Assembly (NCBI GenBank): GCA_027365145.1
Contig: DAHXOA010000041.1
Coordinates: 1-34,783 of the forward strand
Source: Acidimicrobiaceae bacterium
GTDB lineage: Bacteria > Actinomycetota > Acidimicrobiia > Acidimicrobiales > RAAP-2
Length of the DNA stretch: 34,783 nucleotides
Direction: 5' to 3'
The position numbers were made by a program, and so were the translations under genes. This document shows, in pieces, positions 30,315-34,783 of this stretch (positions are counted from its first letter, which is position 1; the number at the start of each line of letters is the position of its first letter). A model generated the notes under the pieces. The model did not search any database, was not told the origin of the DNA, and was given only the letters and a program-made list of their open reading frames with translations.

Positions 30315-30343
30315 GCTCTGGGAAGCGGGTGCTCTGGGAAGCG
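30315..30343. repeat. Direct repeat gctctgggaagcg, 16-bp period
   Basis: gctctgggaagcg at 30315-30327 and 30331-30343. Confidence 0.9.
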
Positions 30344-30416
30344 AACCCGCCGTTCTCCCCTCTTCTCTCCTCCCGGAGCGTTACCCGGGTCCGATCAGGA
30401 TTGGATCGCCATCCGC

Positions 30417-30824: not shown

Positions 30825-30868
30825 TCCAAGGAACCTCCAAGGAAGATCCATGACCTTTCCAAGGTGGG
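30825..30868 (+). promoter_or_regulatory. Four 11-bp phased direct repeats, candidate OmpR/PhoB-family response-regulator operator
   Basis: TCCAAGGAACC TCCAAGGAAGA TCCATGACCTT TCCAAGGTGGG at 30825, 30836, 30847, 30858; 110 bp upstream of the efflux operon ATG. Confidence 0.6.
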
Positions 30869-30978
30869 TGACGTGTACTCGCAGCACTGCGGGGACCGAG
30901 AGCGCCTCGGAAACCCGGAGGGCGAGGCCTACGAGCCCCGCCGCTCGATCCCCCAGACTCAGGTGCCGAGGAGACGTG

Positions 30979-32213
30979 ATGGACGCCAAACACCGACGGT
31001 GGTCGAAGAAATGGACGATCGTGGTCGTGGCCGTGGTCGTGGTGGCCGGCGGCGGTGTGGGGCTGTGGCTCGGGACCCGGTCCTCGTCGCCTGCTGCTGC
31101 TGCCACCACCGAGACCGAGGCCGTCACCACCGGTACCATCTCCGAGAGCGTCTCGGCCACCGGGACCCTGGAGCCGGCCACCGAGGCGAACCTCGACTTC
31201 GGGACCTCCGGAACCGTCGATGCGGTCGATGTCACCGTCGGCCAGAAGGTCACCGCAGGACAGACCGTGGCCACCTTGGACACCACTACGCTCACCGCCT
31301 CGGTGGCCGTGGCCCAGGCCACCGTGTCCTCAGACGAGTCCAAGCTGGCCACCGACGAGGCCGACGACGCGTCGAGCTCGCAGATCGCCGCCGACAACGC
31401 CGCCGTTGCCTCGGCGGAGACCCAGTTGACCAGCGCCAACCAGGCGCTCGCCGATGCCACGCTCACCTCCACAATCGCCGGGACCGTGGCGGAGGTGAAC
31501 CTCACCGTCGGCCAACAGGTGTCCGGGACCGCAGCATCGTCGGGCGCCTCGGCGTCGTCGGCAGCCGCTGCGACCGGGGCGGGAGCGGGCGGTGCCGGAG
31601 GGTTCGGCGGTTCGGCGGCCGGCACCGGATCGGCGTCGACGGCCACCACGGCTACCGCCCAGATCGAGGTGATCTCCACTGGCTCCTATATCGTGAACAC
31701 CACCGTCGACGACACCGAGGTGGGCGAGATCGCCGACGGAGACCAGGCGACCATCACGCTGAGCGGAGCGACGACCCCGGTGTACGGCACCGTGGGATCG
31801 ATCGGGCTCCTGGCGACGAGCACGTCCGGCGTGGCGTCGTTCCCGGTCGTGATCGACGTGACGGGAGACCCCTCCGGGCTCTACGGGGGCATCAGCGCCA
31901 CCGTCACCATCATCTACAAGGAGCTCCAGGACGTCGTCATCGTCCCCACCGCCGCCATCCACTACTCCGGGAGCTCGGCCACGGTCGACGTGGTCGACGG
32001 GTCGAAGCAGGAGCCCCGCACGGTGACCGTCGGGACCACCTCCGGTGCGGAGAGCCAGATCACCTCGGGTCTCCAGGTCGGAGAGAAGATCTCCATCCCC
32101 GTGATCCGCTTCGCGCTGCCGTCCGGGGCAGCCAAGGGCGCTGCCGCCGGGGGGCTCGGCGGCAGGGGCGGCGGGGGCTTCGGGGGCTTCGGGGGCGGCG
32201 GGGGCTTCGGCGG

Positions 32214-32217
<4 letters not shown>
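30979..32217 (+). CDS. MacA/HlyD-type periplasmic adaptor (membrane fusion) protein
   Basis: ATG at 30979 after gaggag. N-terminal TM segment KWTIVVVAVVVVAGGGVGLWLG, lipoyl half-motifs GTVDAVDVTVGQKVTAGQTVATLD and GTVAEVNLTVGQQVSG, GLYGGISATVTIIYKELQDVVIVPTAAI. Gly-rich C-terminus. Confidence 0.9.
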
Positions 32218-33103
<886 letters not shown>

Positions 33104-33107
<4 letters not shown>

Positions 33108-34330
33108 ACTGGCTGGAGACCTTGCGCACCGGTTTGGAGGCCACCGTCACCCATCGGCTCCGATCGGGCCTCACCGTGCTCGGCATTCTCATCGGTATCG
33201 CCGCCGTGATCCTGACCGTCGGGCTGGGGGAAGGGGCGCAGAACCAGGTGGCGTCGGAGATCTCCTCGCTCGGCTCGAACCTGCTCACCATCACCCCGGG
33301 GAGCTCGACGTCGTCCACCGGCGTTCGGGGTGGGCTCGGGACGGCCACGACGCTCACCATGGGCGATGCGACGGCGCTCGCTTCCCACACAGTTGCGCCC
33401 GACATCGCCGCGGTCGCGCCCACGACGTCGGTCTCCGAGGTGCTGACGGCGGGGACGAGTACCTGGACCACGTCGGTCGTGGGCACGAGCCCGGCGTGGC
33501 TGAGCGTGCGCGACGAGACCGTCGCCGAGGGGCGGTTCATCACCACCAACGACGTCGCCGATCACGCCATGGTCACGGTGCTGGCATCGACGACATCCGA
33601 GGAGCTCTTCGGCTTCCGTGATCCGGTCGGTCAGACCGTCGACGTCGGCGGCACACCGATGACGGTGGTCGGGGTACTGGCATCGGTCGGCGACTCCTCG
33701 ACCACCAACGAGGACGACCAGGCGGTCGTCCCGATCACCACCGCCCAGGACGTGCTCTCCGGCGGCAGCGACGTGGTCCAGGACATCCTCGTGTCTTCGA
33801 CCTCGTCGGGCACCCTCTCCGGCGCCTACCAGGAAGCCGACGCGGAGCTCCTCGCCCTGCACCACATCACCTCTCCCGCCAATGCCGACTTCACGATCGA
33901 GTCACAGCAACAGGTGCTCTCGACCGCAACATCGGTCGACAAGACCCTCACTGTGCTCCTCGGCGGGATCGCCGGGATCTCCCTCCTCGTCGGTGGCATA
34001 GGGGTCATGAACATCATGCTGGTGTCGGTGACCGAGCGGATCCGGGAGATCGGGCTCCGCAAGGCACTGGGCGCGACCCCGAGCATCATCCGGCGGCAGT
34101 TCCTCGTCGAGGCGTCGGTGTTAGGGCTGGTCGGTGGCGTCCTCGGGGCCGGTCTCGGTCTCCTCGGGGCGGTGGTCCTCCCCCACTTCATCTCGGACCC
34201 GATCGCCATCTCACCGGTCGCCATCGTGGGGTCCATCGTCATCGCCATCTGCATCGGCATCCTCTTCGGTGTCTATCCGGCCAGCCGGGCGGCACGCCTG
34301 GCACCGATCGATGCCCTACGGAGCGAGTAG
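33104..34330 (+). CDS. MacB-type ABC transporter permease (FtsX-like)
   Basis: GTG overlaps the ATPase stop (GTGA). LRSGLTVLGILIGIAAVILTVGLGEGAQNQV, ISLLVGGIGVMNIMLVSVTERIREIGLRKALGATPSIIRRQFLVEASVLGLVGGVLGAGLG, FGVYPASRAARLAPIDALRSE. Confidence 0.96.
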
Positions 34331-34435: not shown

Positions 34436-34783
34436 ATGGCGAAGCACGCGATGGGAGCCACAGGGCGGCGTTACCGGATCCCGGGCACTCGTCACCTCGT
34501 TGGCCTGCCGGTCCTGGCCACCTGTGCCGTCGTCCTCGCGGCGTGCGGCGGGGGGTCCACCACCACGAGCGCCACGACCAAGACCGGGAGCAGCGCGCCT
34601 GGGCACAGCTCCTCCGCTCCCAGGGGAACTGCGATACCGGGAACGTCCGGGACGCTCGCTGCCATCGACGGCACCTCCCTCGAGGTGCAGAACCCCGCGA
34701 GTGGGCAGACCACCGTCACCTACACGCCGACGACGACGTTCTCCCAGACGGTGCCCGCGTCACTTGCGAACGTGACCGTCGGT
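34436..34783 (+). CDS. Putative lipoprotein, DUF5666-like (3' truncated by window edge)
   Basis: ATG at 34436 after aaggag. MAKHAMGATGRRYRIPGTRHLVGLPVLATCAVVLAACGGGSTTTSATTKTG...SGTLAAIDGTSLEVQNPASGQTTVTYTPTTTFSQTVPASLANVTVG, open to the window end. Lipobox LAAC. Missing from the ORF track. Confidence 0.82.
   Translation, partial: MAKHAMGATGRRYRIPGTRHLVGLPVLATCAVVLAACGGGSTTTSATTKTGSSAPGHSSSAPRGTAIPGTSGTLAAIDGTSLEVQNPASGQTTVTYTPTTTFSQTVPASLANVTVG

Follow-up and report, generated by a model that had tools for sequence, protein, structure and literature searches.

The window analysed here, a stretch of 34,783 nucleotides that ends where contig C92 ends, carries a four-unit array of phased direct repeats on its forward strand (30825..30868) ahead of a MacAB-type exporter operon, and an array of the same design stands before the orthologous operon in eight related genomes. 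It is probable, judging from sequence and synteny, that this array is a tandem operator of the PhoP type through which a kinase-regulator pair encoded at the start of contig C158 activates the exporter operon. That the predicted binder is some PhoP-like member of the OmpR family appears highly likely, and the C158 regulator would be the likely member, in preference to a paralogue. The original prediction of a response-regulator operator controlling the adaptor-ATPase-permease operon thus gains support from both the phylogenetic footprint and the syntenic regulator pair. Tandem operators built on the PhoP-type 7+4 plan are known; what is new is that their occurrence has been traced in a little-studied bacterial family, for which a concrete and testable regulator-operator pair can now be proposed.

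The array and the operon that follows it

The letters at 30825-30868 read TCCAAGGAACC/TCCAAGGAAGA/TCCATGACCTT/TCCAAGGTGGG, in exact agreement with the sequence and position first reported, and can be written as TCCAAGG-N4-TCCAAGG-N4-TCCATGA-N4-TCCAAGG followed by four further bases, with units at 30825-30831, 30836-30842, 30847-30853 and 30858-30864. The element had been described as an 11-bp repeat; the period of 11 stands, but only 7 bp of it are repeated, the other 4 bp being a free spacer. The third copy (TCCATGA) is degenerate in the window, and a tendency toward a degenerate third copy is seen in the relatives as well. With four units of 7 bp at period 11, the array scores 36 out of 42. 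When the whole window was shuffled 15 times under a second-order Markov model, the top scores were 27-30, and in 2,000 shuffles of the intergenic region around the array a score of 36 was never reached. A period-11 scan of the window found no second position at 36/42, the only other equal score being that of a coding Gly-Phe repeat of period 9 (32163-32181). The 1.95-Mb draft genome contains a single exact TCCAAGGN4TCCAAGG and no instance of the reversed control. The motif was picked post hoc, after it had been sighted in the window, and the footprint in relatives serves as the independent test. The array is real and far from chance.

On its left, the array's intergenic region ends at rpmB, encoding ribosomal protein L28 (29987..30220, forward), which is also the upstream neighbour in G003, G024 and G005; left of rpmB lie a FakA-like (DAK2) gene and recG, both in the opposite direction. 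About 95 bp past rpmB, GCTCTGGGAAGCG occurs in two exact copies 16 bp apart (30315-30350), overlapping an inverted repeat, GCGGGTGCTCT/AGCGAACCCGC, that is perhaps the rpmB terminator. Scanning the window for Rfam families and tRNAs returned no matches. The operon itself, all on the forward strand, begins with a HlyD/MacA-like adaptor, or membrane-fusion protein (30979..32217; Pfam HlyD_3 and Biotin_lipoyl_2; start context GAGGAGACGTGATG), and continues with a MacB/LolD-type ABC ATPase (32214..33107; ABC_tran, E=1.4e-32) and a MacB-type permease (33104..34330; MacB_PCD and FtsX). The union of a HlyD adaptor, an ABC ATPase and a MacB_PCD/FtsX permease in one operon identifies a MacAB-type exporter, with the ATPase and permease as separate genes and a score that does not reach the MacB NCBIfam equivalog cut-off. 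The adaptor gene has a Gly-Phe-rich tail of 9-bp coding repeats (32163-32217), and its stop and the start of the ATPase gene overlap by 4 bp. Beyond the permease, the start of a putative lipoprotein gene (34436..34783, forward; tblastn matches to L154, L155, L158, L163 and others) is cut by the end of the contig, 453 bp past the permease.

Nine bp past the last unit lies a putative -10-like hexamer, TGTACT (30874..30879, forward); among the nine aligned genomes, eight have T at its first position and all nine have T at its last. TGTACT is a weak match to TANNNT, and the hexamers found elsewhere read TCAAAT, TCGAAT and TCCAAT. TGTACT is poor as a -10 element, and a sigma-70 promoter scan of the window found no promoter. 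Some similar sites before other genes have better hexamers, such as TACGAT and TAGAAA, at a distance of 9-10 bp. Because the last unit sits 9 bp upstream of the weak hexamer, a regulator bound to the array would overlap the -35 region, and we infer from this placement an activator operator, favoring activation over repression. The array would then serve the promoter of the exporter operon as its operator, bound head-to-tail by a phosphorylated OmpR-family regulator close to PhoP of Mycobacterium tuberculosis (Mtb), with one protomer on each 7-bp unit and strict 4-bp spacers between them; four units could hold a cooperative tandem tetramer, which would recruit RNA polymerase and so activate transcription.

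Conservation before orthologous operons

Alignment of the upstream regions of orthologous operons, proposed at the outset as a check on the array, could be carried out with operons taken from relatives whose permeases share 62-75% identity; an adaptor search of the genome contigs gave remote matches only. The 15 upstream regions were tested with the window's own unit, TCCAAGG, alone and against dinucleotide shuffles. Four-unit period-11 arrays were found before the adaptor gene in G003, G022, G033, G021, G035, G024, G005 and G082, each at p<=0.015, and the combined p by Fisher's method over all 15 regions is 7e-12. These eight genomes represent three genera other than the window's, and G024, G005 and G082 are closely related, so that the independent evidence amounts to about four genera with the window's included. 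The arrays in all eight end in TCCAAGG, and periods of 8-10 and 12-14 score lower than period 11. With the last unit as the anchor of the alignment, the four 11-bp steps show inter-genus identities of 0.59, 0.68, 0.40 and 0.81, as against 0.24-0.33 in the upstream flank and 0.27-0.43 in the downstream flank; the flanks themselves are unalignable. The array is, by sequence comparison, a phylogenetic footprint.

Among the remaining regions, G012 is borderline for a TCCAAGG array (p=0.03), and the same test was negative in G044, G036, G013, G006, G018 and G063. Several of the TCCAAGG-negative genomes have units of the TCACAGG/C type at roughly the same place, and TCACAGG and TCTCAGG units are interspersed in the operon arrays of G021 and G033.

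A candidate regulator across a presumed contig gap

The genome encodes 11 Trans_reg_C proteins. One of these, a PhoP-like response regulator with Response_reg and Trans_reg_C domains, is encoded with a histidine kinase on contig C158 (953-1621, reverse strand); among solved structures Mtb PhoP is its nearest relative (E=6e-68), and it falls within a clade of 11 regulators from the window's genome and its relatives (support 100/99). The recognition helix reads N-M-V-E-V-Y-(V/I)-S-Y in 11/11 clade members and in G035. The corresponding helix of Mtb PhoP is N-V-V-E-S-Y-V-S-Y, with base contacts by N212, V213, E215, S216, Y217 and Y220; the C158 protein keeps the N, E and both Y residues among these and replaces V213 with M and S216 with V.

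One line of evidence that pairs this regulator with the array is gene order. A putative lipoprotein gene also follows the permease in relatives, and after it come a second HlyD-type adaptor and then a convergent kinase-regulator pair; this pair follows closely on the operon, in convergent orientation, in G003, G024, G005, G082 and G035, and where the contig continues in the same genomes, thiL and a PEP carboxykinase gene follow. C158 begins inside a kinase (308 of ~520 residues), and continues with the regulator, thiL and PEP carboxykinase. C92 at its right end and C158 at its start therefore match the two sides of the relatives' arrangement, and we infer that the two contigs adjoin across an assembly gap right of 34783. 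It had been suggested that two-component genes might lie just past the right edge of the window, and the synteny in five relatives together with the C158 orthologues supports this suggestion. Three features expected of an OmpR/PhoB-family operator are found together, namely head-to-tail repeats of period 11, conservation in orthologous promoters, and a nearby regulator with receiver and winged-helix domains in relatives, the last being found in the window's genome across the inferred contig gap. The likeliest binder would be the regulator of this pair. Elsewhere, a related kinase-regulator pair stands directly upstream of the operon and in the same direction in G013, and the pair of G070 is next to the DAK2 gene, without the operon.

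The arrays and the regulator also occur together. The TCCAAGG array is present in all nine operon genomes with the N-M-V-E-V regulator and in none of the seven tested genomes without that regulator (Fisher 9e-5), a contrast that ignores phylogeny and places the borderline G012 among the negatives. Related sites precede the regulator gene itself in several genomes: TCCAAGG-AAAT-CTCCAGC in the window's genome, G000, and its congener G001, TCTCAGG-N4-CCACAGG/A in G024, G005 and G082, and pairs of TCACAGG, TCTCAGC or TCTCAGG in G070, G068 and G044. No array was found before the regulator gene in clade members G021, G033, G003 and G022.

Further sites and a possible regulon

A four-unit array, TCCCAGG-N4-TCTAGGG-N4-TCTCAGG-N4-TCACAGA, precedes a second gene in G000 (C132:3774-3813; L193). 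By eye this gene is sqd1-like and would encode a UDP-sulfoquinovose synthase, with Pfam support limited to Epimerase. A four-unit 7+4 array also precedes the sqd1-like gene of G001 (C82:2791-2830; L192), so that both genus members have one, and two clear units lie upstream of the gene in g16 and g3 genomes. Among the g16 genomes are some with no detected C158-type regulator (e.g. G063, 93% complete) that carry TCTCAGG-N4-TCCAAGG before sqd1, which makes it probable that such sites can also be read by some other PhoP-like protein.

The pattern TCWCAGSN4TCHMAGS gave 39 matches over 20 genomes, with regulator promoters and, in g5, a site at a membrane protein gene among them, against 6 for the reversed control. 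Two-unit matches in the genome with up to 3 mismatches numbered 105 vs 123 in the reversed control; since such degenerate pairs are not above control, calling a regulon from them is unreliable, and only multi-unit or conserved sites were used as regulon hints. Many TCNNAGGN4TCCAAGG matches were set aside as having no further units or conserved context. TCTCAGC-N4-TCCCAGG was observed before a membrane protein gene at L170 (G082:C73:46731), G024:C66:37471 and G005:C182:282; the protein, in g5, resembles PAP2/inositolphosphotransferases by eye and is a possible further regulon member. Paralogous exporter operons have different OmpR-family regulator genes close upstream (G001:C72, L088; G018:C49, L087; G056:C16, L091), and TCACACC-N4-TCACATG lies upstream of the G001 regulator.

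It is tempting to speculate, though the idea is doubtful at present, that a distinct PhoP-like subfamily, marked by the N-M-V-E-V-Y helix and a TCCAAGG/TCTCAGG code of its own, controls an envelope-lipid regulon in which sqd1 sulfolipid synthesis is coupled to the MacAB-like exporter, the latter perhaps moving an envelope lipid or glycolipid, not a drug. Such predicted joint control of exporter and sulfolipid synthesis would hint at the exporter's purpose, and the case as a whole shows that following up a phased repeat from a single genome can be a reliable route to a regulon.

Alternative binders and readings

The sqd1 sites bear on the question of whether a different PhoP-like paralogue, e.g. 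the C50 regulator (L065), reads the array in place of the C158 regulator. L065 is the protein nearest to Mtb PhoP, closer than the C158 regulator; its own promoter (G000:C50 ~590-622, gene at 687) carries TCACAGC-N4-ACCCAGC-N4-ACACAGG, a variant of the 7+4 plan that is likely an autoregulatory site of near-classical Mtb PhoP type; and in genomes that yielded L065-type regulators alone, TCTCAGG-N4-TCCAAGG is still kept before sqd1. L065-type promoters, however, carry TCACAGC/CCACAGG units in place of TCCAAGG, and it is the C158-type pair, not L065, that is the operon's syntenic neighbour and that the TCCAAGG arrays of the operon track. L065-type paralogues may cross-bind, yet as the principal readers of the array they seem unlikely.

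Far less probable is binding by a SARP-type activator, which joins an OmpR-like DNA-binding domain to BTAD. The published SARP target architecture is nearly identical to that of the array (PMC10936776), and the genome has one weak BTAD-domain protein, but this sole candidate lies on a different contig with no link to the operon, and what relatives keep beside the operon is a two-component system.

Finally, the repeat might be accidental or degenerate and play no part in regulation, or might belong to an N-terminal extension of the adaptor's coding sequence. These readings have hardly any probability left, even with the frame upstream of 30979 open from 30748 in the window's genome: the shuffles never reach the array's score, the array is kept while its flanks diverge, and the coding reading was dropped because the distance from array to start codon (64-114 bp across genomes) covers all three frames and the array does not stay in one frame with the adaptor. 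The preferred reading thus remains a PhoP-like operator read by the C158-type pair.

Comparison with known systems

The pho box of PhoB in Escherichia coli consists of 11-bp-phased direct repeats over the -35 region, ~10 bp upstream of the -10 element. The window array shares this phasing and placement, but the PhoB unit is of the CTGTCA type and its regulator belongs to a different branch. SARP/AfsR boxes also have an 11-bp phase, with the last repeat 8 bp from the -10 element (PMC10936776), and thus share with the array an OmpR-type DNA-binding fold, the phase and a similar -10 placement; unlike the candidate regulator, SARPs are not phosphorelay response regulators, and no SARP gene lies near the operon. 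Streptomyces CutR offers a likeness of another kind as an actinobacterial two-component regulator of envelope/secretion functions, and was dropped as a binder because the site published for it consists of one TAWATAAA rather than phased repeats (PMC12802291).

The closest parallel is Mtb PhoP, which binds 7-bp direct repeats cooperatively in tandem with a strict requirement for 4-bp spacing, holds three or four units tighter than two, and has the operator TCACAGC-N4-TCACAGC (PMC4832192). The window array resembles this operator in its 7-bp head-to-tail units, 4-bp spacer and four-unit extension, in its PhoP-like candidate regulator, and in the TCACAGG-type units present in the same arrays of some relatives. 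It differs in that the main unit here is TCCAAGG/TCTCAGG, TCACAGC itself being absent from the window array; in the Met and Val that replace Val213 and Ser216 in the candidate regulator's helix; and in the predicted target, a MacAB-like exporter with which the kinase-regulator pair is convergent. These differences offer a natural experiment in how a PhoP-type recognition helix alters its DNA code.
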